From Lysinibacillus agricola (lineage in GTDB: Bacteria; Bacillota; Bacilli; Bacillales_A; Planococcaceae): a DNA stretch of 64,000 nucleotides. Below the pieces are notes generated by a model. It was given only the letters and a program-made list of their open reading frames with translations. It ran no database searches and had not been told where the DNA came from. How positions within the stretch are numbered: the first letter of the stretch is position 1; the number at the start of each line of letters is the position of its first letter. Of the stretch, positions 10,221 to 51,219 are shown piece after piece. Both the position numbers and the translations under genes were made by a program. Location of the stretch: assembly GCF_016638705.1 (NCBI RefSeq), contig NZ_CP067341.1, positions 2,111,501 through 2,175,500 on the forward strand, given 5' to 3'.

Positions 10221-10243
10221 GTAACGAAAAAGTAGGTGAATGG

Positions 10244-11308: not shown

Positions 11309-11310
11309 TC

Positions 11311-11390
11311 CATTTCGCCTTGGCGGAATTGTGTCGGATTTTTGAATTGTGCATGCACAATTCATTCCTTTCAAAATCCGTGACATCCTG
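11311..11390 (-). repeat. Dispersed repeat family A, copy 1 (partial, inverted)
   Basis: Read on the minus strand, this matches the second half of the copies at 26424-26555 and 44000-44202: GTCACGGATTTTGAAAGG, then a GAATTGTGC/GCACAATTC hairpin, then CAAAATCC and CGCCAAGGCGAAAT. It lies between ykfB and dppE. Confidence 0.85.
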
Positions 11391-11429
11391 TGAAAACGCT
11401 TGAGTGAGCAACATCCTGTTGCCCCGAAC

Positions 11430-11560
11430 CAATCGGGCTTTTACGGGCAGTTGATCCTCCACTTATATTTTTTGTTTCACATAAATTTTGAAGAGAGAGT
11501 TTTGTACTTGACGCTTCGCTTTCGATACAGATAAGTTACTGCCCGTTTATGCGGGATAAA
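11430..11560 (+). repeat. Dispersed repeat family B, copy 1
   Basis: It shares AATCGGGCTTTTAC-GGCAG at the left and GATACAGATAAGTTACTGCC at the right with the copy at 41822-42005. The ends are inverted (ACGGGCAGT against ACTGCCCGT). It sits in the dppE leader, so it may affect operon expression. Confidence 0.8.
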
Positions 11561-11583
11561 AGAGATTACTAGGGGGGTTGTTT

Positions 11584-13410: not shown

Positions 13411-13532
13411 AAACATTTAGTTTCATTGCTACATTTAAGATAAACGTTCAAAAACGGTTTTATTAATGAAGGAGATACCGAATAAGAAAAGTCGGCATCT
13501 CCTTTAATCTTTCTGGAAAAGGAGGATGTTGT

Positions 13533-14477
13533 ATGCTGTGGTATATAGGAAAACGATTATTGCAATCAATTTTAACACTTTTTATTATTATCACGATTGT
13601 CTTCTCATTATTACGTTTAATGCCAGAAGAAGGTTATTTAGGGGCAGCAGCAGATAAGATGTCACCTGCTCAACAAGAGATATATTTAACGAATTTAGGT
13701 TTACGTGACCCGTTACTTGTACAATTAGGAAATTTTTACGCTAATCTGTTTCAAGGTGATTTAGGTAAATCCGTTACATATCGGACAGATGTACCAGTCG
13801 TCACGATTATTGCAGATAAGATCATGTATTCCTTGCTATTTGGCTTAGGTGCTGTTGCGTTATCTCTTCTAATTGGGGTTCCGCTCGGAATATTGATGGC
13901 CCAGATGAAGGGGCGCTGGCTGGATCGCTTAGGGACTGGCTATATTGTCATTGTTGTTGCAGTACCAGCTGCCGTTTATTATTTAGTCATTCAAATGTAT
14001 ATTACAGAAATTTTTCATTTACCAATGCTTTTTGATGAGTATAAACCCATTACTTGGATTTTACCACTCACTTCAATGGCGTTAGCACCGACTGCCTCTT
14101 ATGCTATGTGGATGCGGCGTTACATGGTGGATGAACTAAACAAGGATTATATCAAGCTAGCAAGAGCAAAAGGGGTTAAAGAGCGTACCTTAATGTTTAA
14201 ACATGTACTACGAAACGCCTTTATTCCGATGGCACAATATTTACCCGCAACCATTCTTTTTACTATTACAGGCTCCATCTATATTGAATCCTTATATTCC
14301 ATTCCTGGGATGGGGGGGCTACTCGTAGATGCCATACAGCGACAGGATAATACGATTGTACAAGGCTTAGTACTTGTTTTCTCTTCACTTGGAATTATCG
14401 GACTAATTTTAGGTGATATTGCAATGGCCCTTGTTGATCCACGGATTAAATTAGGGAAAGGGGAGAGTATACGCTAA
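13533..14477 (+). CDS. dppB: Peptide ABC transporter permease, DppB/OppB type
   Basis: This 314-residue integral membrane protein has six predicted helices and the BPD_transp_1 fold. The coupling loop reads KLARAKGVKERTLMFKHVLRNAFIP, the EAA motif for contact with the ATPase. AAAAGGAGG precedes ATG 13533. The gap from dppE contains no clear terminator. Its stop overlaps the dppC start by one base. Confidence 0.93.
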   Translation: MLWYIGKRLLQSILTLFIIITIVFSLLRLMPEEGYLGAAADKMSPAQQEIYLTNLGLRDPLLVQLGNFYANLFQGDLGKSVTYRTDVPVVTIIADKIMYSLLFGLGAVALSLLIGVPLGILMAQMKGRWLDRLGTGYIVIVVAVPAAVYYLVIQMYITEIFHLPMLFDEYKPITWILPLTSMALAPTASYAMWMRRYMVDELNKDYIKLARAKGVKERTLMFKHVLRNAFIPMAQYLPATILFTITGSIYIESLYSIPGMGGLLVDAIQRQDNTIVQGLVLVFSSLGIIGLILGDIAMALVDPRIKLGKGESIR

Positions 14478-15451
14478 TGGGTATGTATTCAGAGGAAATT
14501 AACAATATATCCGATAAATCACGTGAAACATTGTTCGAGTTTGCGGAAGTAGATGAGCGTCAAGCTGAAGAAACAGCCTATTCTAATTATTCCTATTGGC
14601 GTTCCACATGGAAATCCTTTTTGAAAAATCGCATCGCTGTCTTCTTATTAGTTGGTGTTCTTATTATCGTAACCTTTACCATATTACAGCCGTATTTCCC
14701 AGCGCAAAAATCACCGACTGAAATATATTTAGATGAACAGACAGGTCTCCAAGCACGTAATATTGCTCCGAACGCTGAGTTTTGGTTTGGGACAAACTCC
14801 ATTGGACAGGATTTATGGTCACGGATTTGGGCAGGTACAAGGACCTCATTATTTATAGGCTGTGTCGTTGCTTTTGTAGAGGCTATCGTTGGTATTACAA
14901 TTGGTACGCTTTGGGGCTTTTCGCGTAAATTAGAGTTGCCCATCACACAGCTTTACAACGTCGTTGATAACATACCGACGACCATTGTACTTATTTTAAT
15001 GTCCTATATTTTGCGGCCGAGTATTTCGACGATTATTATTGCCATGTGTATTACTGGCTGGGTAGAAATGGCAAGATTTATACGCAATCAAATTGTTATT
15101 TTACGTGATCGTGAATATAACTTAGCCTCAAAATGCTTAGGAACACCTGATTACCGCATTATTTTAAAAAATCTATTACCTTATCTTATTTCCGTGATTA
15201 TGTTACGAATGAGTCTAGCCATACCATTTGCAATAGGCTCAGAAGTTTTTTTAACATACATCGGATTAGGCCTACCGATTAGTGAACCGTCTTTAGGAAA
15301 TTTAATCAATGAAGGACGGGTACTAATGATGTCACCAGATTTAAGATATCAGCTTATTTTTCCGAGTATTGTATTAAGTGTCATTACGATTGCATTTTAT
15401 ATTATAGGAAATTCATTTGCAGATGCAGCAGATCCGAAAAATCACGTATAA
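14477..15451 (+). CDS. dppC: Peptide ABC transporter permease, DppC/OppC type
   Basis: This 324-residue partner permease has the N-terminal extension usual for OppC (about 60 residues before helix 1), then six helices. WFGTNSIGQDLWSRIWAGTRTS is the conserved OppC periplasmic motif, and NLASKCLGTPDYRIILKNLLP is the EAA loop. It is translationally coupled to dppB (TAATG). Confidence 0.93.
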   Translation: MGMYSEEINNISDKSRETLFEFAEVDERQAEETAYSNYSYWRSTWKSFLKNRIAVFLLVGVLIIVTFTILQPYFPAQKSPTEIYLDEQTGLQARNIAPNAEFWFGTNSIGQDLWSRIWAGTRTSLFIGCVVAFVEAIVGITIGTLWGFSRKLELPITQLYNVVDNIPTTIVLILMSYILRPSISTIIIAMCITGWVEMARFIRNQIVILRDREYNLASKCLGTPDYRIILKNLLPYLISVIMLRMSLAIPFAIGSEVFLTYIGLGLPISEPSLGNLINEGRVLMMSPDLRYQLIFPSIVLSVITIAFYIIGNSFADAADPKNHV

Positions 15452-15457
15452 AGGGGG

Positions 15458-16522
15458 ATGATGGAAGTGACACAAACTAAATCACCTATTTTAACCATCC
15501 ATAACCTAGTCATAAAATTTACGCTTCGTGGCAGGGTGCTAACTGCTATTCGTAATATTTCCCTTGATTTGTACAAAGGTGAAAGCCTTGCAATCGTTGG
15601 CGAATCTGGTTCAGGAAAATCAGTACTGATGAAATCAATCATGGGCTTACTCGATAAAAATGGCTACATTGATCAGGGGCAAATCATTTACAATGACCGG
15701 GATTTAGCACAGTTTAAAACCGAGCAGGAGTGGCTAAGCATTCGTGGAAAAGAAGTGGCAATGGTTACCCAGGACCCAATGACATCATTAAATCCACTGA
15801 AAACAATTGGCAAGCAAATTGAGGAATGTGTTATTTTACATCAGAATTTAAAGGGCAAGGTAGCATACGAAGAAACTTTGAAATTGTTAAAAGATGTTGG
15901 CATTTACGATGTGGAAAAACGCTATAAGCAATATCCTCACGAATTTTCGGGTGGTATGCGTCAACGAATTGTAATAGCTATTGCGCTAGCATGTAAGCCT
16001 AAAATCTTAATTTGCGATGAGCCAACAACTGCCTTAGACGTAACAATCCAAGCACAAATTTTGCAGCTTTTAAAAGATCTTCAGCAAAAATATGGACTAA
16101 CAACTGTTTATATAACGCATGATTTAGGAGTTGTGGCAAAGGTAGCTGACCGTATTGCAGTTATGTATGCGGGGGATGTCATCGAAATAGGCAAAACACA
16201 TGAAATTTTCTTTAATGGCAAGCATCCCTATACATGGGCACTTCTTTCTTCATTACCGCAACTAGGCTCAAAAGGGGAGCAACTTTATTCCATCAAAGGT
16301 ACTCCACCTAATCTTTTTCAAGAAATTAAAGGAGATGCCTTTGCACCTCGCAATCAATATGCGTTAAAGATTGATTTTGTGGAACGTCCTCCATTTTTTC
16401 AGGTGAGTGACACACATTATGCTCGCACATGGCTATTAGATCCACTCGCTCCGAAAGTAGAGCCTCCTGAAGCGTTACAAGCATTTTTCGAGGAAGGGAG
16501 ACGATACGCGCATGAGTCATAA
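15458..16522 (+). CDS. dppD: Peptide ABC transporter ATPase, DppD/OppD type
   Basis: This 354-residue ATPase shows Walker [10 protein letters not shown]-loop [10 protein letters not shown], signature FSGGMRQR, Walker [13 protein letters not shown] and the switch His in THDLG. The C-terminal oligo_HPY region follows, although its usual CxxRC-type cysteine cluster is absent here. GTG and ATG choices around 15458 are close; ATG 15458 follows AAAGGGGG. The end overlaps the next ATPase gene by 11 bases. Confidence 0.92.
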
Positions 16523-17459
16523 AGAAGTGTTAGTTGAGGTGAAAAATTTAAAGGTTGTTTTTGGTAAAGGCAAAAATAAATTTATAGCTATTGATGATGT
16601 CAGCTTCGAGATTTTTAAAGGTGAAACATTTGGTTTAGTAGGGGAATCAGGCTCTGGAAAAACAACAATCGGCCGAGCTATTATGCGTATCAATGAAGTC
16701 ACTGAAGGACAAATACTGTATCACGGCAAGAAACTAAATGGCAAAATATCGAAAGAGTGGGATCGAGAAATTACTCAGAAAATCCAAATGATTTTTCAAG
16801 ATCCAATGGCATCTCTAAATGAACGCGCAAAGGTTGACTATATTATTTCTGAGGGGCTTATTAATACAAAAAATTTCAAAAATGAGGCTGACCGTCAACA
16901 GAAGGTGCGCAATGCATTATTAAATGTAGGATTATTACCGGAGTTTTCTAGTCGCTTCCCGCATGAATTTTCAGGAGGACAGCGCCAGCGTATCGGCATT
17001 GCACGCGCATTAGTAATGGAGCCAGAGTTTATAATTGCGGATGAACCGATTTCAGCATTAGATGTTTCCATTCGTGCGCAAGTATTAAATTTATTAGCAA
17101 ACCTACAGCAGCAAAATGATTTAACTTATTTATTCATTGCACATGACTTATCTGTCGTCCGTTTTATTACTGACCGAACTGCTGTTATTTATAAAGGTAA
17201 AATTGTTGAGCTAGCTGAGACAGAAAAGCTATTTACTAATCCCATTCATCCATATACAAGGGCATTATTATCTGCAGTACCTGAGCCGAATCCTTATAAG
17301 GAGCGTGACAAAGTCGTAGAAATCTACGATCCATCACAGCACAGCTATGACATTCAGCCACCGTCATTTATCGAAATGGAGGAAGGTCATTTTGTATTGG
17401 CAAATGAAGAGGAATTAGAAAGATACCGAACTTCACTTAAAATGGAGGTAAGCAAATGA
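16512..17459 (+). CDS. ykfD: Peptide ABC transporter ATPase, YkfD/OppF type
   Basis: This 315-residue second ATPase has Walker [23 protein letters not shown], signature [15 protein letters not shown], Walker [13 protein letters not shown] and AHDLS. With DppD it makes the heterodimeric motor. In Bacillus subtilis the corresponding gene in the muropeptide cluster is ykfD. Four-base overlap with the next gene shows tight coupling. Confidence 0.9.
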
Positions 17460-18388
17460 TTCGTCCAAAGGCATTGAAAAAAGGTGATACAATTGGTCTT
17501 ATAAGTGCTTCGGGTGCAACGCCGCCTGAAAAATTTGTTCCTGCCGTAGAAAGTATCGAGAAGCTAGGGTTTAAAGTCGTCGCTGGGGAGACATGTCGAG
17601 CAAGGCATGGCTACTTAGCAGGCTCTGATGAATTACGTGCCTCTGAAGTTAATCAAATGTTTAGGGATTCAAATATTGACGGCATCTTTTGTATACGTGG
17701 AGGTTACGGAGCGACGAAAATTTTACCGCTTCTTGATTTCGATATGATAAAAGCTAATCCAAAAGTATTTGCTGGTTATAGCGATGTGACAGCACTACAT
17801 ATCGCCTTTAACCAAAAATGTGGCTTTGTCACGTATCATACACCAATGCCCTCTACAGAATTTATTCGGCCGGAGATGGATCACTACACATGGAATTCTT
17901 TTATCGAAAATGTGACCGCAACAGAGCGTAGTGACTACTACCTTGAAAATCCACCTGGACGTCCAATGACAACGCTTGCAGCTGGAAAGGCAACAGGGCA
18001 GCTTATTGGTGGGAACTTAACATTAGTTACAGCATCTCTTGGGACACCATATGAAATTGATACAAAAGGCAAAATATTATTTTTAGAAGATGTAGACGAG
18101 AATGAGCAGCGTGTTGATCGGATGCTTACGCAGCTAAAATTAGCAGGGAAACTAGATGAAGTGGCAGGTATATTATTAGGAGCATGGACTAATTGCGGTC
18201 CTGAAAATCCAAAACATCCAGAGCATAGCCTATCACTACAAACCATTTTTCAGGAAATTTTAGGTCCACTCCACAAACCTATCATAAAGGACATAGCTTG
18301 CGGTCACACCTTACCAACGATGTCCCTGCCACTTGGTAGAACAATAACAATGGACGCGGAGAATCAGATGATAAAAGTTATAGAGTAG
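17456..18388 (+). CDS. ykfA: LD-carboxypeptidase YkfA (peptidase S66)
   Basis: This 310-residue serine peptidase belongs to the LdcA/MccF family. [18 protein letters not shown] is the typical start and [16 protein letters not shown] holds the nucleophile-elbow region. The S66 catalytic Ser is usually in GYSD, present here as [10 protein letters not shown], and the Glu/His pair is expected in FLEDVDE and CGHTLP. It should remove the terminal D-Ala from murein tetrapeptides in the cytoplasm, complementing DppA and the VanX-like enzyme. Confidence 0.92.
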
Positions 18389-18397
18389 GTGTGAAAT

Positions 18398-19183
18398 ATG
18401 AAGCAAACGATAACAGAGATTCTTCAAAATGCACCTTATAAAGTGCATATGTTTGTGAAAGATTGTAAGACTGAGCAATTTTTTATTAGTGAAAAGCTAG
18501 AAGACGCGTTTTCTAGTGCTAGCTTAATTAAAGTGCCTATACTGCTTGCTGTTCTGAATTATTTAGAAAGTAACAACAAATCCATAGAGCAAGAGATTAA
18601 GATTGCACCAGAAGAATGGGGCGATTTTAGTGTTATTAGTGAACAGCACCTAGAGCAATGTACCATCTATGAGCTTTTAGTATGGATGATTATTAAGAGT
18701 GATAATACAGCAACAAATGTACTAATCGATTTTCTAGGGATGGAGGCACTCAATCAATATTTTCGTCAAATTGGGCTTCTGCAAACAACAATTCAACGTA
18801 AGATGATGGATTTTGAAAGGCTTGCAAAAGACTTAGATAATACTACGTCGGCACGTGATATGGCACTGCTATTTTCGCGAATTTATCGCAAGGACTTGTT
18901 ATCATCAGCATTTAGTGAGCTAACGTTAGATATTTTAAGTCGTCAACGTGTACACGAATCACTAAAGCGTTATTTAGTAGATGATGTGAAACTTGCTCAT
19001 AAAACAGGTGGTCTTGATACGGTAGATCATGATGTTGGGATTGTGTACAACAATTCAAGGGATTATCTTATTGGCGTTTTCGTCACGGAGGTTACTAATA
19101 ATGACGATGCAAGACAGCTAATTGGTCGTCTTTCCAAAGTTGTTTACGATTACTTGGTGAAGCGGAAGGAGATGATAGAATGA
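18398..19183 (+). CDS. Class A beta-lactamase-like serine hydrolase
   Basis: This 261-residue protein has the penicilloyl-serine-transferase motifs in order: Ser42-x-x-Lys45 in SASLIKVPILL, SDN in MIIKSDNTATN and KTG in LAHKTGGLD. No signal peptide is seen, so it probably acts in the cytoplasm rather than as a secreted resistance enzyme. Similar genes occur inside muropeptide recycling clusters, where a role on murein peptides or beta-lactam-like compounds is assumed but not proven. It overlaps the following gene by four bases. Confidence 0.82.
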   Translation: MKQTITEILQNAPYKVHMFVKDCKTEQFFISEKLEDAFSSASLIKVPILLAVLNYLESNNKSIEQEIKIAPEEWGDFSVISEQHLEQCTIYELLVWMIIKSDNTATNVLIDFLGMEALNQYFRQIGLLQTTIQRKMMDFERLAKDLDNTTSARDMALLFSRIYRKDLLSSAFSELTLDILSRQRVHESLKRYLVDDVKLAHKTGGLDTVDHDVGIVYNNSRDYLIGVFVTEVTNNDDARQLIGRLSKVVYDYLVKRKEMIE

Positions 19184-19995
19184 ATGCCATTGTGACGTCA
19201 ATGATTGCGAATTTACACGCGAAGCCAGATAAAGCCTCAGAATTAGTGGATGAGATACTATACGGAATGACGGTTCGAATTATGGAAGACATTGATGAGG
19301 GTTGGATACGCATACAAACTGCTTATCGCTATGAAGGTTATTGCCAGAAGGATAACTTAATGTTCCATGAAGTAAAAACGGATACTTGGCTACAAGGAGC
19401 AAAGCATTTTATTAATCAAAGCTTCGCCGATGTTTTGCAGCAACCCCGAATTCAAAGCACGAAAATGATGACTCTCGTTAAAGGCTCAATCATCTGTTCG
19501 ATGGCTATTGACGAGAAAGATCCTGAATGGGCAACAGTGCAATTAGTGTCAGGTGAGATTGGTTACGTACGTAGGGAATGGCTACGAGAAAAAATTCCAG
19601 AAAACAGCTTGTCCGAGCAACAATTACGAGAAAATGTTGTCCAAACAGCTCTTAGCTATTTAGCAGCACCCTATCGCTGGGGAGGAAAATCGCCGCTAGG
19701 TATTGATTGCTCAGGCCTTTGTTCAATGGCATATATGCTAAATGGGGTATATATCTATCGCGATGCCAAAATCGTTGAAGGTTTTCCTATCAAGGAAATA
19801 TCACTAGAACACATACAAAAGGGAGATTTATTGTACTTCCCAGGTCATATTGCTTTATATATAGGAGATAACCTTTATGTACATTCTTCGCTTGGCGGGA
19901 ATGAGGTTACTATTAATAGTCTAGACGACCAGCACCAGCACTATCGAAAGGATTTGGCAACATCTATTACCGCTGTTGGTAGTTTATTTAAATAA
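19180..19995 (+). CDS. ykfC: Gamma-D-glutamyl-L-diamino acid endopeptidase YkfC (NlpC/P60)
   Basis: This 271-residue cysteine peptidase has two N-terminal bacterial SH3-like domains (about residues 1-140) and a C-terminal C40 domain. The nucleophile is Cys177 in GIDCSGLCSM and the base is His223 in PGHIALYIG. Like YkfC, it lacks a signal peptide and should cut L-Ala-gamma-D-Glu from diamino acid, giving the substrate of YkfB. It is the last gene of the operon. Its terminator is interrupted by a MITE. Confidence 0.92.
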   Translation: MNAIVTSMIANLHAKPDKASELVDEILYGMTVRIMEDIDEGWIRIQTAYRYEGYCQKDNLMFHEVKTDTWLQGAKHFINQSFADVLQQPRIQSTKMMTLVKGSIICSMAIDEKDPEWATVQLVSGEIGYVRREWLREKIPENSLSEQQLRENVVQTALSYLAAPYRWGGKSPLGIDCSGLCSMAYMLNGVYIYRDAKIVEGFPIKEISLEHIQKGDLLYFPGHIALYIGDNLYVHSSLGGNEVTINSLDDQHQHYRKDLATSITAVGSLFK

Positions 19996-20261: not shown

Positions 20262-20828
20262 TTGAATCTGGAATTAAAAGAGTTGTTACGTTCCGTGTTA
20301 AAAGAAGAATTGGCACCATTCCATCAACGACTAGATGGAATGGACAAACGCTTTGAGTCTATTGATCATCAATTGGTTGGAATGAACGAACGTTTTGACG
20401 GTATTGAACAGCGCTTTGATAAAATTGAAAATGATGTCTACGAACTTAAGAGTGATGTACATGAACTTAAGAGTGATGTGCATGAACTTAAAAGTGATGT
20501 ACACGTACTTAAGGGTGATGTGCATGAACTTAAGGGTGATGTACATGAACTTAAGAGTGATGTGCATGAACTTAAGAGTGATGTACACGTACTTAAGGGT
20601 GATGTGCATGAACTTAAGAGTGATGTGCATGAACTTAAGAGTGATGTACACGTACTTAAGGATAATGTACATGAACTTAAAATTGGACAAGCTGAGCTTC
20701 AGAAAAACATTGTCGAACATTTAGGTGAGTTTACTGAAAAAATTGCTCAGCAGGTAGAAGATAGAACTTACGTTTTAAACAAACGCGTCTTTGATATAGA
20801 AATAGTTATTCATAGATTAACAAGTTAG
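20262..20828 (+). CDS. Heptad-repeat coiled-coil protein
   Basis: This 188-residue protein starts at TTG 20262 after GGAGGG; the nearby ATG 20257 stops at once. Residues 1-60 are amphipathic helix (LKEELAPFHQRLDGMDKRF). Residues about 60-145 are about twelve copies of a seven-residue unit, DVHELKS or DVHVLKG, encoded by a 21-bp DNA repeat. The C-terminus is again helical. The unit places V and L at a/d-type positions, so a long parallel coiled coil is expected. No membrane segment or known domain is recognised. Similar repeat proteins differ in copy number between strains through slippage. Function unknown. Confidence 0.8.
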   Translation: MNLELKELLRSVLKEELAPFHQRLDGMDKRFESIDHQLVGMNERFDGIEQRFDKIENDVYELKSDVHELKSDVHELKSDVHVLKGDVHELKGDVHELKSDVHELKSDVHVLKGDVHELKSDVHELKSDVHVLKDNVHELKIGQAELQKNIVEHLGEFTEKIAQQVEDRTYVLNKRVFDIEIVIHRLTS

Positions 20829-28585: not shown

Positions 28586-28947
28586 AATTGATATATAACG
28601 TAATTTCCCGAAGAAGGAGCTTTGCTCGATGTCCTTTGCTTTTACTTTTTTCGAAGACGGCGTAAGAATAGCGTAAATCTTTTCTCTCTATTGAAGCATA
28701 TATATTAAATCGAAAGGACCAGTTTTATTTGTAAAACGAAAAAAGTCGTCATATTTCTTGTCTTTACATATTATATCGAGAGGATGTTGAATAAAGTGAA
28801 ACTTCAATCAGTGGGGTTTCCTCAATGTTAATGGCAAAAATTTGTTTGACTTAAATCTTGAAGAGGAGTCTTACTGCTCGTTTATGGAGGATAAATTAAA
28901 AAAATAATTGACGAATGACTCATTAAGACTTGGGAGGGGCTGGGGAA
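28586..28947. other. Intergenic region with repeat relics
   Basis: It contains the lost upstream part of the sigma gene and repeat B copy 3 (28793-28897). No gene was found. Confidence 0.5.
28793..28897 (+). repeat. Dispersed repeat family B, copy 3 (degenerate)
   Basis: It shares GTGAAACTTCAATCAGTGGG with the left end of the copy at 41822, and TTACTGCTCGTTTATG-GGATA with the right end of the copy at 11430. The middle is shorter. Confidence 0.6.
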
Positions 28948-29379
28948 ATGAATAGTGAAAACAGAAAAAACCATTTTCTATGTGAAGCACTCTACGACAT
29001 AAAAGCACTCCAGGATGTGATGAAGGATTTTCATTCTAAATATTTTGGTCAGCTGCTCGTGAAAATAGTTGGAAGTGATACGATACCCTTTTTTTTAATA
29101 ACACATAACGGCAGTCATTTAAAATTAATGGATACAGTAAAGCAATTTGAAACAGAGTTTTTTCGTATAGAGGCTATTGATAGGGAGCGTTGTCGAGGAA
29201 CTGTTTCGCTTTTGCGTGCTTTTGATTATGAAGGGCATGATACGAATATAATTTCAGATGTAGTGAGGTTAGAAAAAACATCCACAGAAAAATCCATTGA
29301 ATTAAGAGGTATATCTGCGATTCAGTTATTAAAGCCTGACATGTTAAAAGGGAAATTCATCATTGAGCCCAAATGGTGA
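28948..29379 (+). CDS. CotY/CotZ family spore-coat-like protein, cysteine-poor
   Basis: This protein of about 143 residues aligns along its length with CotZ/CotY/ExsY crust proteins: LCEALYDIKALQDVMKDF, the core GQLLVKIVGSDTIPFFL, FFRIEAID, GTVSLLRAFD, VVRLEKT and the end SAIQLLKPDML. CotZ-type proteins are very cysteine-rich and cross-link by disulfides, but this one has only two cysteines, so assembly must differ. ATG 28948 is better than TTG 28930, which lies in the GGGAGGGG site. The neighbouring YheC/D-Mur ligase fusion supports a spore-surface role, which is inference. Confidence 0.72.
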   Translation: MNSENRKNHFLCEALYDIKALQDVMKDFHSKYFGQLLVKIVGSDTIPFFLITHNGSHLKLMDTVKQFETEFFRIEAIDRERCRGTVSLLRAFDYEGHDTNIISDVVRLEKTSTEKSIELRGISAIQLLKPDMLKGKFIIEPKW

Positions 29380-29412
29380 TGAATTTTTAATAGGGGAATA
29401 TTGGTATTTGTT

Positions 29413-29440
29413 GGATTGAAATGGTGAATCAACACACCTG
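29413..29440 (+). repeat. Repeat family D, right-end relic
   Basis: GGATTGAAATGGTGAATCAA followed by CACACCTG matches the right end of the copy at 22317-22518. Only the terminal 28 bases remain. Confidence 0.6.
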
Positions 29441-29535
29441 CTAAAATAACATAATATTTAGAGCATCTGTCTATATGTATGTTCATTGACTGAATTTATT
29501 AGTGAGAGAATCCTATGAAAGGAAGAGATTAGTGG

Positions 29536-31854
29536 ATGACAATTATCGGAATGCTTCATCATCGTCTAGATCCTAGAACAGTTATTAAGTCATATGCATA
29601 TGCGGCCGTCGCAAAAGCAGAAGGCGCTCAATTTTTTTATTTCACACCAAAAAGCGTTGACTTTGATAAACGTTCCATTAGAGGAAAGGTATATGAAAAT
29701 GGTGATTGGCATGAAAAAATGATGCCCTTCCCAGATGTTATATACAATGCAGGAAGTCCCGAAAAATTATCGGTATCAAAGGACATTATTGAGAAATTGA
29801 AAAAGGAAATACCTTTTACAACTTACTCTATAGGGAATAAATGGAATGTTATGAAACGACTTAAAGAAGCAAAGGAATTTGATAAGTATTTAATTCCATC
29901 TGAGGTTGTGGAAAATGTTGATTTACTCCATAATTTTATGGCTTATTATAAAAAAGTCGTATTTAAACCGATAGATGGCCGGAAGGGAAAAGGGATTTAT
30001 TTTATTTCGAAAGTAGGAAGGACTAACTTTGAGGTAAGGAAGGATAGGGAAACTACTGTTTGTTCAAAGTCACAGCTAGATGAATTAATTAGAGGGCAAC
30101 TTACTACAGGCACCTTTATCGTGCAGCCTTATATCCAATCCAAAACAAAATCCGGTCAAATATATGATTTTCGTCTTCACGTTCAAAAAGACGGTGAAGG
30201 TAAATGGGTTATAACGACAATTTATCCACGGATTGCACCAAATGGCTCGATTATACCGAATATTAACAATGGTGGTTTTACGAATTATTTAGATCCTTTT
30301 CTAGAGCAGGAATTTAAAGAAGATGCTTATGATATTCGGCGTATGTTAGAGCATTTTTCTTTGTCACTGGCTCGCCATTTAGATGAAATTCAGATGGAAC
30401 AATTTGGAGAGGTTATTGATGAAATTGGCATTGATGTAGGCTTAGATGAGCAAAGAAAAATTTGGATGTATGAAGTGAACTGGCGACCAGGTTGTCCTCC
30501 TGCTTTTTATTTAGAATTAGATGTGGTCATTAATACTATAAGGTATGCAATGTACCTTGCTAAGAACCAGGAACAAGTTAAAAAGGAAATTAGGCAACAT
30601 AAGAAAAATAAGGATATAGCCGAAGTTAAAAGGGAAATTACACAACAGGAGGAGTATGAAGAAATAGCCGAAGTTAAAATGGAATTTACGCAACAGGAGG
30701 AGTATGAAGAAATAGTTGAAGTTAGAAGGGAAATTACGCAACGGAAGAAAAATAAAGATATAGCTGAAGAAAAGGCTTTACCGATTATCGCGATTACCGG
30801 CAGTGCTGGAAAAACGACATCAAAAGCATTCCTTGCCTCTATTTTATCGGAAAAATGGAATATCTTTGAGTCAAAAGATTATTGGAATACAACAGAGCAT
30901 ACGAAAAAACATAAAGAAGAAATTAATGCTTCGCATGAGGCTGTTGTACTTGAGTACGGGATGGCTTACCCAGGTATCATAACAAACCATTGTAGCATTA
31001 TCCAACCGAATATTAGTATTATTACAAACATCGGTTTAGCTCATGTAGGCAACTTTGATGGAGATATTAAAGGAGTGGCCAAGGCAAAGTCGGAATTAAT
31101 ACATGGAATGGACCAAAACGGTTTATTAATCCTGAATCAGGATGATGAGAATTCAAAATATTTAGAGACACAACAGTTTGAAGGGGAAATCTTAACAGTT
31201 GGTATTCATAGCACAGCGAACTATAAAGCTTATGATATTCAATATAAAGATATCGGAATGACCTTTAAAATAAAGCTGCAAGGTCAGGAAATGGCTATGT
31301 ATATCCCAATTTTAGGAGAACATCATGTTTATAATGCACTTAATGCAGTTGCGGTTGCAGATTATTTAGGGTTTAGTCCAGAAGATATTAAAGCAGGGTT
31401 AAATTTCAAAAAACCACCTAGAAGATTAACAATTTATAACTGTCGTGATGACATTACAGTTATTGACGATACTGTTCACTCTCATCCCCAGGGCGTACGT
31501 GCTGCTATTGACGTTCTTACAAATATAGCGAAGCAACGTAAAATTGCTATTATAGGTCAAATGCGAGAATTAGGAGATTTGAGAGAAGAGGAATATCGTA
31601 AATTGGGTGAATACATTTATGAGCAAGATATAGATTTATTCATCACTTATGGTTTTAGAACGGAGGAAATGGGAGCGGCAGCGAAGGCAAAAGGGATGGA
31701 TCCTTCTAAAATTTATCATTTCCTGGATAAGGAAAAATTGCATGCTCTCTTAGAGAAAGTCATAAAACCTAACGACACCATTTTAGTAAAGGGTGCTAGT
31801 AAAACGAATATGTTTGATACGGTTAAATTTTTAGATCAAAAATATCAAGAATAA
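29536..31854 (+). CDS. YheC/D-type ATP-grasp enzyme fused to a Mur ligase
   Basis: This 772-residue protein has three parts. Residues 1-340 are a YheC/YheD-type ATP-grasp domain, with VVFKPIDGRKGKGIYFI as the ATP loop, FIVQPYIQS, DFRLHVQKD and a metal site in YEVNWRPGCPP. Residues 347-410 are four 16-residue charged repeats. Residues 415-772 are the Mur ligase central and C-terminal domains with P-loop GSAGKTTSK (Lys426), EYGM, NIGLAHVGNFDG, AKAKSEL, NALNAVAVA and IDDTVHSHPQGVRAAI. The usual Mur N-domain is replaced by the ATP-grasp part, the same order as in cyanophycin synthetase. It should form amide bonds by two acyl-phosphate steps; substrates are unknown. GGAAGAG precedes the start. Confidence 0.85.
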   Translation: MTIIGMLHHRLDPRTVIKSYAYAAVAKAEGAQFFYFTPKSVDFDKRSIRGKVYENGDWHEKMMPFPDVIYNAGSPEKLSVSKDIIEKLKKEIPFTTYSIGNKWNVMKRLKEAKEFDKYLIPSEVVENVDLLHNFMAYYKKVVFKPIDGRKGKGIYFISKVGRTNFEVRKDRETTVCSKSQLDELIRGQLTTGTFIVQPYIQSKTKSGQIYDFRLHVQKDGEGKWVITTIYPRIAPNGSIIPNINNGGFTNYLDPFLEQEFKEDAYDIRRMLEHFSLSLARHLDEIQMEQFGEVIDEIGIDVGLDEQRKIWMYEVNWRPGCPPAFYLELDVVINTIRYAMYLAKNQEQVKKEIRQHKKNKDIAEVKREITQQEEYEEIAEVKMEFTQQEEYEEIVEVRREITQRKKNKDIAEEKALPIIAITGSAGKTTSKAFLASILSEKWNIFESKDYWNTTEHTKKHKEEINASHEAVVLEYGMAYPGIITNHCSIIQPNISIITNIGLAHVGNFDGDIKGVAKAKSELIHGMDQNGLLILNQDDENSKYLETQQFEGEILTVGIHSTANYKAYDIQYKDIGMTFKIKLQGQEMAMYIPILGEHHVYNALNAVAVADYLGFSPEDIKAGLNFKKPPRRLTIYNCRDDITVIDDTVHSHPQGVRAAIDVLTNIAKQRKIAIIGQMRELGDLREEEYRKLGEYIYEQDIDLFITYGFRTEEMGAAAKAKGMDPSKIYHFLDKEKLHALLEKVIKPNDTILVKGASKTNMFDTVKFLDQKYQE
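30574..30765 (+). repeat. 48-bp in-frame tandem repeat in the fusion linker
   Basis: Four units of 16 codons (types EVKREITQQEEYEEIA and EVRREITQRKKNKDIA) join the ATP-grasp and Mur ligase parts. Outer units are lysine-rich and inner units glutamate-rich. Such a run would form a charged helix and could vary in copy number. Confidence 0.85.
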
Positions 31855-31863
31855 ATAAAAAAG

Positions 31864-31913
31864 CCCGAGTAATTGACCTTATTGAAAGGAGACAATTATT
31901 CGGGATATTTTTT
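31864..31913. terminator. Terminator after the fusion gene
   Basis: CCCGAGTAATTG and CAATTATTCGGG form a stem with one mismatch, a loop of 17 bases and a T-rich tail. It lies between two convergent genes and can serve both. Confidence 0.7.
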
Positions 31914-31963
31914 ATAGCTAAATAAATCATCGTATGAGAGCATTTTCAGAAAGTACTTTAAAT

Positions 31964-33178
31964 CTAAGATACTTTGAGAATGAATTTTATTTCTTTTGCG
32001 GCGTTAATGGCTTTATTTTTAGCTTCAGCTAATGTAGCGCCTTCCGCAATTACATAAGCATAACGATGTCCCATCGATAAAGGAGGGGTCAGCAATGTCC
32101 CTCTTTTTGGTTTCACATATACATCCACAACACCTGGTGAATTCGTTGCTCTATTTCTTCCAAGAACTTTTTCTAGAATACCTTTACTTTCAACGATGAT
32201 GTATTTAGTATAGACAAACTTTAGTTTCTTTGGATTGATATCGGGGCGTTCACCTAAAAATAGTTTAAGTGTTTCTTCCACTAAATTAAATCCAAAAGCA
32301 GCGTGAAGCATAGTATTCATTGCTCCTCCTGAGATTCGCGGATTAATCTCGATAAGTTTCCAGCCGTTCTTTGTTAAACGAAGCTCTAAATGCAAAGCAG
32401 CATTTTCGATGTTAAACGCTTTTACAATAGATTGGAGAACTTCCTCAAGACCACTTTGAATTTCTTTTGGAGCTTTAACGAGAACACCGTATCCAGTAAT
32501 GATAAAACGTTTACCTTGAGTAATTTCTTGTTCAATAATACCGATGACATTAGCTTGTCGTTTATAGACAAGTGCTTCTACTAAATATTGCGGACCTTCG
32601 ATATATTCTTCAATCATAAGTGTTTCACGAGGATTTTTGCTTCGTAGATAGCTCAGGTGTTTGTTCAGTTCACTTGAGTCGTTTGCTAACAAAACATCTT
32701 TAGAGCCTGTTGATTTTGGAGATTTTACAATAAGTGGGAATTCGAAATTATTAGAGACTGGCTCATTTGGCTTGAGAAGAAAAAACTTAGGCGAGTAAGG
32801 CTGATTCTTTAAAAAATTTCTAGTTTTCTCTTTATCCTCCATCATTTCAATAGCTGTTGAAGATGTATAGTTATCACAAAATTCATCACATAAAATTGAG
32901 GCAATATGGACAAAAGGATCGACAAAGCTAACAATAGATTTTATTTCTAATCCGAATTTAATTAGATTATAAATCTCATCTTTCATGTCTTCTATATTCG
33001 AAGTATCAATAAGAACCATTTTATGAATATCTGGGTAGGCTTTTCTCTGCTGTATTTGCTTTTCGTTGTTAGTAAAAAGTACAGTAAAATAACCTAATTT
33101 TTCTGCTGCTTTTGTTGCTTCGCGACTTGACCCAGATTTGTTAGTGCCGATAAATATAATCGTTTTCAGGTATATCAC
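31964..33178 (-). CDS. ATP-grasp ligase related to L-amino acid ligases
   Basis: This protein of about 401-404 residues has an N-terminal pre-ATP-grasp Rossmann domain (IIFIGTNKSGSSREAT), the ATP-grasp core with PLIVKSPKSTGSKDVLL, MIEEYIEGPQYLVEALV and metal ligands in LHLELRLT and LIEINPRISGGAM, and a C-terminal domain ending TLAEAKNKAINAAKEI. This layout is that of BacD/YwfE-type L-amino acid ligases, which join two amino acids with ATP. GTG 33178 is inside the GAAGGAG site; CTG 33169 is better placed and may be the true start. It is divergent from the next Mur ligase, in a locus of amide-forming enzymes. Confidence 0.82.
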   Translation of the reverse strand: MIYLKTIIFIGTNKSGSSREATKAAEKLGYFTVLFTNNEKQIQQRKAYPDIHKMVLIDTSNIEDMKDEIYNLIKFGLEIKSIVSFVDPFVHIASILCDEFCDNYTSSTAIEMMEDKEKTRNFLKNQPYSPKFFLLKPNEPVSNNFEFPLIVKSPKSTGSKDVLLANDSSELNKHLSYLRSKNPRETLMIEEYIEGPQYLVEALVYKRQANVIGIIEQEITQGKRFIITGYGVLVKAPKEIQSGLEEVLQSIVKAFNIENAALHLELRLTKNGWKLIEINPRISGGAMNTMLHAAFGFNLVEETLKLFLGERPDINPKKLKFVYTKYIIVESKGILEKVLGRNRATNSPGVVDVYVKPKRGTLLTPPLSMGHRYAYVIAEGATLAEAKNKAINAAKEIKFILKVS

Positions 33179-33318
33179 TCCTTCTATTGTTACTTAGATG
33201 CTTAATCAACTATATATATATGCGAAGAAATAGATTTCCTCTAGTTAAGTATCTCGTGTACATCCAAGCAACTTTTAAGAAGTTACATATACTAGAGTGG
33301 AAGGGAGGGGAAAATAAT

Positions 33319-34713
33319 ATGAAGCCTCTTACGGTGCAGAATTTAACAGTCATTACTGCAGGCCATTTAGTGCAAGGGTCGGAGGAAGTGTTAATTCAAC
33401 ATGGAGCTTATCGACTAAAGCAAGTGAAAAGACCAAATACCGTACTTTTTATGAGTAAGCGTATTGTCAACTGGAAAGACTTAGAGCCATTTTATCCTAT
33501 AGTTCTTGTAACCGATAGACTATACAGTCAATATGAAATACCTGAGCAAATCATCATCATTAAAGTAAATAATATAGATGAGGCATATTGGAAATTTGTA
33601 AATTATTATCGCAATCAATTTGATATCCCTATCGTAGCCATTACTGGTACTTCTGGTAAATCGACGACGAAGGAAATGATCAAACATATACTTTCTGCAG
33701 ACAAAAATGTAGCATCCACGCCACTTAGTAGTAACTCTAGAACTGCTTCTTTGCAATATTTAATGAATATTGATGATGATACCGACGCGGCCGTTTTTGA
33801 AACTGCTGTTGGTTCACCAGGAGACATCAAACTTGCGGGGGAATATTTTAAGCCGACTATTGGGATTATTACAAATATAGGGGAACATCATTTAAATTAT
33901 TGTAAAACTTTAGAGGGGTATATCCAAGCAAAGGGTGAAATGTTGGACATTATTAGTCCCACAGGCGTGTTAATCCTTAATGCTGAGGATATTAACACAA
34001 GTAAAATAGATTTATCGAGGTTTAAAGGACGTATCATTAAAGTAGGTAAGCATGAATCTTGTGATTTTCGAGCAAGTAATATTCGCTATCATGAAAATGG
34101 TATGCTGTTCAACGTCCATCACAAGAAGAAACTCTATGAAATCTTTGTACCAGGTTTTGGCGAGCACCAAGTATATAATGCCCTTGCTGCGATTGCAGCT
34201 ATTTATGAAATGGATTTGCCGATTTCATTGGCAGCTGAACGACTACCATCATTCAAAAAATTGAATAAGCAGCTTCAAGTATTTAAGGGCATCAATAATT
34301 CCATATTAATAGATGATACATGGAATATTACGACCACTTCTTTGGAGGCAGGATTAAAGGTTTTGAATGCGCTCGGAGAAGGCAAGAAAACGATTGCCGT
34401 TATTGGGACGATTACAGATTTAGGGTCTTGGGGATATATTATTCACGAGCAAGCGGGAGAATTAATCAGTGAAATTGGGGTCGATGTACTCATTACGATA
34501 GGGGAACATGCAAGCATTATGGCGCTTCATGCCATTGAGGCAGGACTTACTTCACCTGTTTATATTTTTAAAAATAGTACGCGCGTCTATAAATTGTTAG
34601 ATGAGATTGTAGATGAAAACACTATTCTTTTCATTAAAGGAGATATGTACAGTAAGGAAGTTTCGAAGTTGGCAGATGATTTAAAAATAAAAAAATCATC
34701 TACTTCTGAATAG
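33319..34713 (+). CDS. MurF-like ligase, paralogue 1
   Basis: This 464-residue protein starts at ATG 33319 after GGGAGGGG; the longer frame from 33187 adds an unrelated tail. Residues 1-105 are a short MurF-like N-domain, then comes the P-loop GTSGKSTTK (Lys114), Glu161 in VFETAVGSPGDI, ITNIGEHHLNYC, Lys205 in QAKGEM (the carbamylated lysine of Mur ligases), FGEHQVYNALAAIAA and LIDDTWN (Asp329-Asp330). It differs from true MurF, where NPxS follows the DD motif; here the text is ITTTS. A cell needs one MurF, so this paralogue probably adds an amino acid or peptide to another acceptor. Confidence 0.85.
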   Translation: MKPLTVQNLTVITAGHLVQGSEEVLIQHGAYRLKQVKRPNTVLFMSKRIVNWKDLEPFYPIVLVTDRLYSQYEIPEQIIIIKVNNIDEAYWKFVNYYRNQFDIPIVAITGTSGKSTTKEMIKHILSADKNVASTPLSSNSRTASLQYLMNIDDDTDAAVFETAVGSPGDIKLAGEYFKPTIGIITNIGEHHLNYCKTLEGYIQAKGEMLDIISPTGVLILNAEDINTSKIDLSRFKGRIIKVGKHESCDFRASNIRYHENGMLFNVHHKKKLYEIFVPGFGEHQVYNALAAIAAIYEMDLPISLAAERLPSFKKLNKQLQVFKGINNSILIDDTWNITTTSLEAGLKVLNALGEGKKTIAVIGTITDLGSWGYIIHEQAGELISEIGVDVLITIGEHASIMALHAIEAGLTSPVYIFKNSTRVYKLLDEIVDENTILFIKGDMYSKEVSKLADDLKIKKSSTSE

Positions 34714-34861
34714 ATTCTTCTTTTCACCTAAATAAATGTTATTTTTCATCATTTACTAGATTGAGCATGCCAATAGCCAATTGCTAAGAAATGCAGAAGC
34801 ATGGTCATATATTAACGCATTTATACAGAAATATACTTTATAGAAAGGGGGCGTAGTTAAC

Positions 34862-36247
34862 TTGCAACATATAAGAGTTAGCGATATAAGAAAATTATTG
34901 CATGGAGAATTAATAAGCGGTTCTGAACTCTGGTCTGTAAAGCATGCAATTTATTATAACCGACATGAACTGACACAAAATCATACACTTATGTTTGTTA
35001 GTAAAAGTGATACAATCAACTGGCAAGAGATAGATCGAAAAGGCCCATCTCTAGTCATTTCGGATAAATCATCAGAAGAATTGAAAAAATCGCTGAAGAA
35101 TACCACCGTTATTCGCGTTAAGAGTATTGTGCAGGCCTATTGGAAATTCATTGAATATTACAGAAATCTATTTCAAATACCAGTCGTTGCTTTGACCGGA
35201 ACATGTGGTAAAACGACAACAAAAGAGATGATTAAACACATAGCTAGTAAGGAATGGAATGTTCAAGCATCTGTAAGCAGTAAAAATGAGCCACGGCAAT
35301 CCCTACCGTATTTGACTGGGATCGATCAGAAAACAAAAGCAGCTATCTTTGAATTAGGTTTGGGGAATATAGGGAATATTAAACACCAATGTATGATCTA
35401 TCAGCCGACGATTGGTATTATTACGAATATCGGTGTCCATCATTTAGACGGATGTATAAACCTTGATGGTTATATAAAAGCAAAGGCAGAAATTTTAGAA
35501 GGAATAAAAAAAGATGGCACGTTAATCATTAATGGTGATGATGAAAACACTAAAAAGATCCCCTTGCATAAATTTAAAGGGAAGATCATTACCTTTGGCG
35601 TTCACGAAAATTCAGATTATCAAGCTACGAATATCCAATTCGCAAAAGGTGGCATGAAATTTGTACTAAAAGTGTCAAATGTCCAGTACAATGTATTTGT
35701 TCCAGGATACGGAGAGCACCAAGTATATAATGCATTAGCGGCTATAGCTGCGGTAAAGGAAATGGGACTTTCCATTGCTGTCGCTATTTCGCAATTAAAA
35801 ACGTTCAAAGCGATGGCACGGCACTTAGAGATTTCTACAGGCATCGGTGAAAGTACGATAGTAGATGATACATGGACAAATAACCCGACTTCTGTTGAAG
35901 CAGCACTAAAGGTTTTAGATACGATTGGAAAAGGGAAAAAAGTAATTGTTATTTTAGGTGACATTAAGCGATTAGGTAGTTTCGAAGAAAAATATCATCG
36001 AGAGATTGGCACATTGGTCGCGGAAAGAAATGTTGATACGCTTATTACTATTGGTAAAAGAGCAGAAAATATAGCGAATCAAGCGTTGAAAGAAGGTACG
36101 AAGGCAGACGTTCATATTTTTCAAGACGTTATAGGCGTTTTAGATGTACTAAAGCCTAAGCTTGATAGTGAAACCATTGTACTTATTAAAGGTCCGATGT
36201 CTAGCAAATCTATGATTGATTTTGCAAATCAGTTAAAAAATAAATAA
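34862..36247 (+). CDS. MurF-like ligase, paralogue 2
   Basis: This 461-residue protein starts at TTG 34862 after AAAGGGGG. It resembles paralogue 1 along its whole length. It has P-loop GTCGKTTTK (Lys117), FELGLGNIGNI, ITNIGVHHLDGC, IKAKAEI, GYGEHQVYNALAAIAA, and IVDDTWTNNPTSVEAAL with a regular NPTS motif. The N-domain (1-108) with MFVSKSDTINWQEI is shared with paralogue 1 and not with classical MurF. Duplication followed by divergence of the substrate pocket is likely. A terminator follows directly. Confidence 0.86.
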   Translation: MQHIRVSDIRKLLHGELISGSELWSVKHAIYYNRHELTQNHTLMFVSKSDTINWQEIDRKGPSLVISDKSSEELKKSLKNTTVIRVKSIVQAYWKFIEYYRNLFQIPVVALTGTCGKTTTKEMIKHIASKEWNVQASVSSKNEPRQSLPYLTGIDQKTKAAIFELGLGNIGNIKHQCMIYQPTIGIITNIGVHHLDGCINLDGYIKAKAEILEGIKKDGTLIINGDDENTKKIPLHKFKGKIITFGVHENSDYQATNIQFAKGGMKFVLKVSNVQYNVFVPGYGEHQVYNALAAIAAVKEMGLSIAVAISQLKTFKAMARHLEISTGIGESTIVDDTWTNNPTSVEAALKVLDTIGKGKKVIVILGDIKRLGSFEEKYHREIGTLVAERNVDTLITIGKRAENIANQALKEGTKADVHIFQDVIGVLDVLKPKLDSETIVLIKGPMSSKSMIDFANQLKNK

Positions 36248-36362: not shown

Positions 36363-37295
36363 TTAAAAAACACGTTTTGCTGTAATATAATGCTCTTTAT
36401 AATAGTCAACCATTAGTACTCTTGTAGTAATACCACTAGAGCTTGGAATGATAAGACGATGATCTCCTGCATAAATAGCTACTAGTGAAGGGTTTTTAGA
36501 GCCTTTAACACTATTGAAGAACACTAAATCACCCTTTTTTAAATTGGCACGTGAAACCGTTGTGCCAACATTCATTTGTTCCTTTAAATTGGTTGTACCA
36601 AGTTTAATTCCACTCTTACGATAGATAAAGTCTACATATCCTGGCGCTGTAAAGCGAAGACTTGCTTCATTATTTGTAGAGCTCATAGTTACTTTATTTT
36701 TATAATTAAAGGCGTTTTCAACAATTTTATCGCCTTTTGTTGCAGGATTAGCTGAAAGTAATGTAGGTAATACTCTACGGGCACCTACATAATTATCTGT
36801 ATAATATGGTTTACCGTTTAGATCCGAAATAACGATATTTTGCTTCGTATCAGCCATGTGAATCATTTTGTTGTTGCCAATATACATGCCCACATGATCA
36901 GGATCTGTTCCTGTTTTTTTACTCTTAAAGAAAAGTAAATCACCTTTTTGTAATTGATTTCTGTTAACGGGTGTTCCTTGTTGTATCATATAATCTTCAT
37001 TATAAGTCGCAAGGTCGACACCATTTTTCTCGAAAATATACATTATAAATGATGCACAAGAAAATTTATAAGGATATGTAGCCTTGTATGTTGTATTGCT
37101 GTATGTCGCCTTACCAATTAAGCTTTTCCCAGTTTGAATTAGTTGATCTGCTTTCGCATTAACTGCTTGTGCGTTATTCAGGGCATTTGTTGTTGCTGCC
37201 TCTACTTCTATAGGGTGAATAGTTGGTTGTACCATCCCCACTGTGCTAAAACCTATCGTCAATGCTAATGTTGTTGTTAAAAATCGTTTATTCAT
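36363..37295 (-). CDS. Secreted NlpC/P60 protein with one active and one dead domain
   Basis: This 310-residue protein has a signal peptide (ending near VEA, residue 33) and two tandem NlpC/P60 domains. Domain 1 (about 45-175) has Cys80 in KFSCASFIMYIF, His134 in DPDHVGMYIG and a third polar site, so it should be active. Domain 2 (about 190-310) aligns closely, but the Cys position is Ala217 in FTAPGYVDFIY and the His position is Leu271 in PSLVAIYAG, so it cannot be a cysteine peptidase and may bind wall material. AGGAGG precedes ATG 37295. Confidence 0.87.
   Translation of the reverse strand: MNKRFLTTTLALTIGFSTVGMVQPTIHPIEVEAATTNALNNAQAVNAKADQLIQTGKSLIGKATYSNTTYKATYPYKFSCASFIMYIFEKNGVDLATYNEDYMIQQGTPVNRNQLQKGDLLFFKSKKTGTDPDHVGMYIGNNKMIHMADTKQNIVISDLNGKPYYTDNYVGARRVLPTLLSANPATKGDKIVENAFNYKNKVTMSSTNNEASLRFTAPGYVDFIYRKSGIKLGTTNLKEQMNVGTTVSRANLKKGDLVFFNSVKGSKNPSLVAIYAGDHRLIIPSSSGITTRVLMVDYYKEHYITAKRVF

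Positions 37296-50204: not shown

Positions 50205-51219
<1,015 letters not shown>

Follow-up and report, generated by a model that had tools for sequence, protein, structure and literature searches.

The 64,000-nucleotide stretch of Lysinibacillus agricola analysed here (the window; contig NZ_CP067341.1, G000:C1:2111501-2175500) lies in a 5.29 Mb genome of a single contig, and at 28.9-36.3 kb it carries five genes in the order CotZ-like (+), fusion (+), BacD-like (-), MurF-like 1 (+) and MurF-like 2 (+), where the fusion joins a YheC/D ATP-grasp enzyme to a MurF-like Mur ligase (Table 1). An earlier note, made from the sequence alone, had placed a cluster of amide-bond ligases next to a spore-coat-like gene here; the cluster is real, and all the genes that it named are present where it put them. 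The BacD-like gene is convergent with the fusion gene and divergent from MurF-like 1, and because the intergenic gaps are 109-156 base pairs (bp), the cluster is not one tight operon.

Table 1. Positions of the cluster genes, their parts and nearby features, counted in the window.
Feature	Position	Strand	Basis
CATATTATA, sigmaE/K-type -10 box 5' of CotZ-like	28767..28775	+	conserved in genus
CotZ-like protein, 143 amino acids (aa)	28948..29379	+	PF10612 15 bits, below cut-off; 24/31 aligned relatives match
EPKW, last four codons of CotZ-like gene	29365..29376	+	44 sequences; residues 135-143 with predicted local distance difference test (pLDDT) <50
YheC/D ATP-grasp + MurF-like Mur ligase fusion, 772 aa	29536..31854	+	profile matches
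YheC/D ATP-grasp domain of fusion	29809..30558	+	PF14398, residues 92-341
Linker of fusion, 48-bp tandem repeat x 4.1	30575..30769	+	
Mur ligase middle + C-terminal domains of fusion	30793..31797	+	PF08245, PF02875, residues 420-754
BacD-like L-amino-acid-ligase-type ATP-grasp enzyme, 404 aa	31964..33178	-	PF18603 above cut-off
CATATACTA, sigmaE/K-type -10 box 5' of MurF-like 1	33286..33294	+	conserved in genus
MurF-like ligase 1, 464 aa, degenerate uridine diphosphate (UDP)-binding N-domain	33319..34713	+	
MurF-like ligase 2, 461 aa, degenerate UDP-binding N-domain	34862..36247	+	
NlpC/P60 protein, frequent neighbour	36363..37295	-	PF00877; near fusion in 25/42 loci

The earlier note had suggested looking at whether the neighbourhood is kept across the genus, and the five genes stand in the same order in 32/32 genomes of the genus that were examined, the window's included. 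An independent sample was taken by scanning named genomes with the YheC/D alignment and keeping the best 80 of 234 confirmed relatives; these 80 loci include seed genomes of the alignment, some are cut by contig ends, and since they are related to one another, P-values for them are descriptive. Their genes were labelled with phmmer on the longest frames given by our own caller, which makes the start positions approximate. The centre is the fusion in 42 loci and a single YheC/D in 38 (37 in the gene-order count, which used a stricter centre rule). Within about 8 kb, a BacD-like gene is present in 78/80 loci (fusion 42/42, YheC/D-only 36/38), a MurF-like gene in 57/80 (40/42 and 17/38) and a CotZ-like gene in 44/80 (36/42 and 8/38). 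The CotZ-like gene lies directly 5' of the fusion on the same strand in 35/42 loci, while the next labelled gene 3' of the fusion is an antisense BacD-like gene in 41/42, followed by MurF-like 1 in 39/42. As for other conserved neighbours, such as an exporter, no unlabelled family occurred in more than 4 of 65 non-Lysinibacillus loci.

Variants of the arrangement are found further away. In another genus of the same family (G035) the same set is accompanied by further genes: a second BacD-like one upstream, one for a small protein that we call S146 (152 aa there), one for a double YheC/D protein and one for a short YheC/D protein between the MurF-like genes. Of these, S146 and the double form are shared by G025 and G010 of the genus, and each of the two is near the centre in 16/42 fusion loci and 1/38 YheC/D-only loci. 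G036 and G033 have BacD-like, CotZ-like and single YheC/D genes without a Mur ligase, and in a different family (G594, G618) BacD-like, YheC/D and MurF-like genes lie on one strand, with one extra gene between them in G618. S146 itself is a conserved protein of about 146 aa that starts with MGVxCPCGV and ends with GCQ; it occurs in 17/80 loci (e.g., L181:13145-13582, L043:8743-9201) and not in the window. In Pfam there was no match for the L052 copy and one weak match below the cut-off for the L054 copy, and the S146 profile found no relative in PDB up to E 1. It is possible that S146 is a second structural spore protein or acceptor.

The two MurF-like paralogues reported in the earlier note are borne out by Mur_ligase_M matches of about 134.6 bits each. 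MurF-like 1 most likely starts at ATG 33319 rather than TTG 33187, because its ribosome-binding site and ATG are conserved. The closest solved relatives of the cluster's Mur parts are MurF enzymes; membership of the MurF family itself was rejected, as the three Mur-type parts of the cluster score 254.6, 239.5 and 246.8 bits on TIGR01143 (MurF), all below its cut-off of 288.6. In comparison with the genome's own MurF, the motifs that we take to bind UDP are gone from both separate MurF-like ligases, and the N-terminal UDP-binding domain is absent altogether from the Mur half of the fusion, while the presumed Mur catalytic core (P-loop, metal-binding Glu, His, and Lys of the carbamylated position) is invariant in 9 aligned sequences. 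Mur_ligase_M has ten matches in the genome, namely two MurE, MurF, MurD, MurC, two FolC and the three of the cluster, with names assigned from sequences and neighbours. The earlier note would have given up the cluster idea if this pair were the only MurF of the genome, or if expression were vegetative and the neighbours were not kept together; a separate, canonical MurF lies beside ddl, and the neighbours are conserved. If the MurF-like enzymes modified precursors of the peptidoglycan in the spore's cortex or germ-cell wall, their structural relation to MurF and the NlpC/P60 gene near 25/42 fusion loci (1/38 YheC/D-only loci) would be accounted for; however, missing UDP-binding motifs or a missing whole domain, scores under the MurF cut-off, and canonical MurE and MurF elsewhere in the genome all argue against such a role, which we consider very improbable. 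In two members of another family (G057, locus L050; G591, locus L132), an NlpC/P60-like gene comes after a single short MurF-like ligase, which resembles the pairing here.

The BacD-like ligase, also named in the earlier note and encoded on the minus strand, matches PF18603 LAL_C2 with 70.7 bits (cut-off 29.4) together with ATP-grasp domains, and it is the sole LAL_C2 match in the genome. At its start (window 33178) an AAGGAG resembling a ribosome-binding site runs into the GTG of the longest frame, and the real start may be a CTG a few codons downstream that is present in most relatives. A dipeptide-type ATP-grasp ligase beside MurF-type ligases with MurF catalytic positions kept resembles the Ddl/MurF pair, whose general roles are formation of a dipeptide (Ddl) and its transfer to an acceptor (MurF). 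Unlike that pair, the ATP-grasp enzyme of the cluster is of the L-amino-acid-ligase type, the UDP-binding motifs are lost, and a separate canonical ddl-murF is kept by the genome.

The fusion has a whole-domain match to PF14398 ATPgrasp_YheCD (216.4 bits, cut-off 26.8), followed by Mur_ligase_M (112.6 bits) and Mur_ligase_C (64.1 bits), in agreement with the earlier description of a YheC/D ATP-grasp enzyme fused to a Mur ligase. An assembly or frameshift artefact was rejected, since the fusion is one open frame in 42/80 named loci and the fused rows group in a tree. In this tree of 93 YheC/D domains, 44 fused rows cluster with one unfused row among them, that of Cytobacillus depressus, whose two halves are adjacent genes; the window's fusion is nearest to fusions of named Lysinibacillus. 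Such a topology fits a single fusion event that was followed by one split. The two halves also lie side by side in G353, where the YheC/D frame is broken by a stop. The presumed Mur catalytic positions are also invariant in 31 aligned fusions. The repeat units of the linker are 16 aa long and charged, and the window's protein has 772 aa vs 707-766 aa in the other 31 genomes of the genus. A second, smaller YheC/D gene is found elsewhere in the window's genome.

The order of an ATP-grasp half and a Mur-ligase half in one chain is that of cyanophycin synthetase (CphA1, the type that makes multi-L-arginyl-poly-L-aspartate), as the earlier note had pointed out. CphA1 aligns with the two halves in that order, and among 50 listed solved structures it is the only one whose alignment begins before residue 200 of the fusion and reaches the last part of the chain. 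In CphA1 one domain serves the main chain and another the side chain (PMC9262961), which would suit a synthetase of an amino-acid polymer that the spore either stores or has as a layer over it. We consider a cyanophycin-like polymer synthetase of this kind quite improbable: the fusion scores 68.2 bits on TIGR02068, over the Mur part only, vs a cut-off of 850, and 52.9 vs 877 on the second cyanophycin synthetase model, and it was rejected as a cyanophycin synthetase on these grounds. The CphA N-domain is absent, the ATP-grasp domain is of the YheC/D type and the Mur half is MurF-like, and the halves also occur as separate genes. In addition, the cluster contains separate ligases and a coat-like gene, and two or more further Mur ligases would be superfluous to a single polymer synthetase.

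Among solved structures, the YheC/D half comes closest to tubulin-tyrosine ligases (TTL), though weakly: in a search with the YheC/D profile they rank first (E 0.001-0.007) and TTLL polyglutamylases next (0.01-0.3), and the weak similarity lies mainly in the last third of the ATP-grasp; Pfam TTL is matched by 27/31 YheC/D members at E <= 0.001. Members of the TTL, TTLL and RimK families attach amino acids to the ends or the side chains of proteins. A 2009 amidoligase paper by Iyer and colleagues is said to have predicted that YheC/D acts on spore-wall proteins, and the idea of a spore ligase is probably partly in print already. YheC and YheD of Bacillus subtilis belong to the same PF14398 family. 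Both had been assigned to the sigmaE regulon by 2004 (PMC517825), both are sigmaE-dependent, and YheD coats the spore and has no known reaction, its function being still given as undetermined in 2021 (PMC7911427); the passages concerned mention neither a Mur nor an amino-acid-ligase partner, in which the cluster differs.

The first gene of the cluster needed closer weighing. The earlier note had called its product CotZ-like, and the window's protein by itself falls under the PF10612 cut-off (15 bits vs 24, E 0.027); what saves the call is relatives that share the gene order, of which 24 of the 31 aligned match PF10612 at E <= 0.01 (best 4.8e-16), and the three tested CotZ-like proteins (G033, G035, G036) are all above the cut-off. 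Judged by these sequence comparisons, the protein is homologous to the CotZ/CotY family but divergent, with identities of 24-55% to the window's copy outside the genus among aligned proteins. A canonical cotZ is found at another place in the same genome. Canonical CotZ has 19 cysteines in each of five proteins, and this trait is absent from 44 CotZ-like proteins, which have 0-14 (median 3; two in 11/15 from Lysinibacillus). The CotZ-like profile found no relative in PDB up to E 1.

What sets these proteins apart is a conserved, unstructured tail (...IIEPKW) that canonical CotZ does not have. At the last positions of the 44 CotZ-like proteins, W is found in 36/44, K in 40/44, P or Q in 39/44 and E in 38/44; in L214 and L219 the C-terminus is one residue longer. 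Canonical CotZ of the genus ends with DVDLGIC plus one residue in 24/25 and with DVDLNICN in 1/25. In the 80 loci, with 1345 open reading frames (ORFs), a terminus of the form [EDG][PQH]K[WC] occurs 37 times, each time in a CotZ-like protein. Since the 30 CotZ-like genes that end in EPKW use four kinds of Pro codon (10, 10, 5 and 5) and three stop codons (14, 10 and 6), the constraint acts on the protein. In the AlphaFold model (mean pLDDT 78.7, predicted template modelling score 0.72) the core is well folded, and residues 135-143 have pLDDT <50 without secondary structure. A fixed C-terminus that is both conserved and floppy is as expected of a docking site and of a ligation site alike. A search of the genome for the EPKW-stop pattern gave one match, the CotZ-like gene, and proves little because the reversed control also gave one.

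The spore association drawn in the earlier note holds up in the CotZ family, in occurrence and in promoter boxes, and from these sequence data we infer it on good grounds. The fusion or its YheC/D half (E <= 1e-75) is present in 101/261 genomes of the family, spoIVA is present in 197/261, and all 101 carriers are among the latter; by genus the counts are 11/13 with spoIVA vs 0/6 (P 0.001, uncorrected for relatedness). The box CATANNNTA, which we take to be the sigmaE/K -10 consensus, is common to the upstream regions of the CotZ-like, MurF-like and true cotZ genes of the genus. It appears as CATAT[TG]ATA 5' of the CotZ-like gene and as CATATA[ACG]TA 5' of MurF-like 1, each in 32/32 genomes of the genus with variable surrounding DNA; G035 has CATATGATG at the second place, and the first was not found there. 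Upstream of canonical cotZ, the alignment of 25 genomes gives CATATTGTA as a consensus of at least 90%. In the 80 loci the box stands upstream of MurF-like 1 in 28/48, MurF-like 2 in 15/33, BacD-like in 29/104, CotZ-like in 16/44 and the short YheC/D type in 4/9, vs 37/519 controls, and with Lysinibacillus removed the counts are 19/33, 11/18 and 28/89 for the first three (controls 37/443). The control motif GATANNNTA is unenriched at MurF-like 1 (3/48), BacD-like (2/104) and CotZ-like genes (1/44) and enriched at the fusion (8/42), with controls of 42/519. SigmaE and sigmaK have a common -10 (PMC517825). YabG (PF05582), the late-sporulation control, was found in 0/25 genomes of the genus; Bacillus subtilis matches in the control.

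Because a Ddl/MurF-type enzyme pair, a YheC/D ligase and a tailed coat-like protein are combined in one conserved set, the reading that we favour, tentatively and at slightly less than an even chance, is that ligases of the mother cell build a peptide or amino-acid chain destined for the coat. In a first step the BacD-like L-amino-acid ligase would join two free amino acids. The MurF-like ligases, freed from UDP-N-acetylmuramic acid, would then add this dipeptide to an acceptor carboxylate, in the way that MurF adds the Ddl product D-Ala-D-Ala. In a third step the YheC/D half, distantly like protein-end ligases, would prime or extend the chain; joined to a MurF-like half, it would let one protein perform two consecutive ligations, as in cyanophycin synthetase. 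Finally, the CotZ-like protein might offer its floppy C-terminal tail as the place where the product is made or docked, and so bring the product into the coat. Our estimate of slightly less than an even chance is meant for the first three steps with the coat as destination. The narrower proposal, that a peptide or amino-acid tail, possibly polymeric, is ligated onto the ...IIEPKW terminus by a TTL-like ATP-grasp ligase and UDP-free MurF relatives to which the L-amino-acid ligase supplies dipeptides, is in our estimate unlikely. We infer the chemistry of each step, which amino acids are used and what accepts them, as well as when and where the product arises. Coat proteins assemble from the mother-cell cytoplasm, so no exporter would be needed if the mother cell makes the product. 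The earlier interpretation, a non-ribosomal peptide or amino-acid polymer on or for the spore surface, thus keeps its conserved multi-ligase cluster, its sporulation link and its cyanophycin-synthetase-like domain order, and a short peptide or protein tail fits at least as well as a polymer.

Several results weigh against a coat-destined chain. A CotZ-like gene is not nearby in 30/38 YheC/D-only loci, and the coat protein is therefore not a universal part of the system. The NlpC/P60 neighbour is unaccounted for in the proposed steps. The same 31 YheC/D members that were compared with TTL also match ATPgrasp_ST (31/31) and glutathione synthetase (22/31). As for the boxes, CATANNNTA stands upstream of only 2/29 CotZ-like genes outside Lysinibacillus (controls 37/443), where the CotZ-like gene often comes after the BacD-like gene, and in the 80 loci it is unenriched at the fusion (1/42), YheC/D (6/45), S146 (1/17), double YheC/D (1/17) and NlpC genes (0/22). 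MurF-like 1 (9/48), MurF-like 2 (8/33), double YheC/D (4/17) and BacD-like genes (11/104) also show a mild excess of the reversed motif (controls 25/519), so part of the box signal may be base composition. Upstream of the CotZ-like box, the -35 element fits poorly: a TCATATT ends 11 nucleotides before CATA, less than the published 12 +/- 1 that separates elements of 8 and 10 nucleotides; TCATATT-N9-15-CATANNNTA has 7 matches in the genome vs 5 for the reversed control and is unenriched.

The loci without a CotZ-like gene would also agree with a free small peptide (an antibiotic, signal or metabolite) made in sporulation, with the CotZ-like protein as a neighbour or scaffold. BacD-type L-amino-acid ligases make free dipeptides, e.g., bacilysin. 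Nevertheless, no recurrent exporter or self-protection gene was seen among the unlabelled neighbours, and the CotZ-like gene with its conserved tail sits next to most fusions, as described above; we regard a free peptide as rather unlikely, and the coat-destined chain remains the reading that we favour.

Around the cluster, membership of the NlpC/P60 gene that follows MurF-like 2 is doubtful. Window 8677-19995 contains genes of murein-peptide-recycling type (M15 D-Ala-D-Ala dipeptidase, M55 D-aminopeptidase, MR_MLE enzyme, S66 LD-carboxypeptidase and SH3-NlpC/P60), and the ORFs between them read as a peptide ABC transporter. At window 20262-20828 there is an ORF of repeated, coiled-coil-like DVHELKS units whose minus strand is also open, and at 50430-50828 a pyridine-nucleotide-disulphide oxidoreductase fragment of 133 aa, which is probably a truncated gene.

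A literature search found no study of the cluster, although most subscription papers were outside its reach; the protein families are known, and as far as the searches go, their combination and the CotZ-like tail are undescribed. The cluster links the YheC/YheD family both to amide ligases of defined type and to a coat-like protein whose linear tail is conserved, and in this way provides a concrete, testable reaction for the family. A free peptide, if that is what the cluster makes, would still be undescribed, and it would come from spore formers of a widespread group. If it is the tail that accepts the chain, bacterial spores would bear a protein modification of a new kind, in which Ddl/MurF-like chemistry has moved off the cell-wall precursor. 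Spores of Lysinibacillus and its relatives would then carry a coat protein with a ribosome-independent C-terminal extension, a sporulation-specific bacterial counterpart of tubulin-tail ligation that is built from cell-wall-type enzymes.

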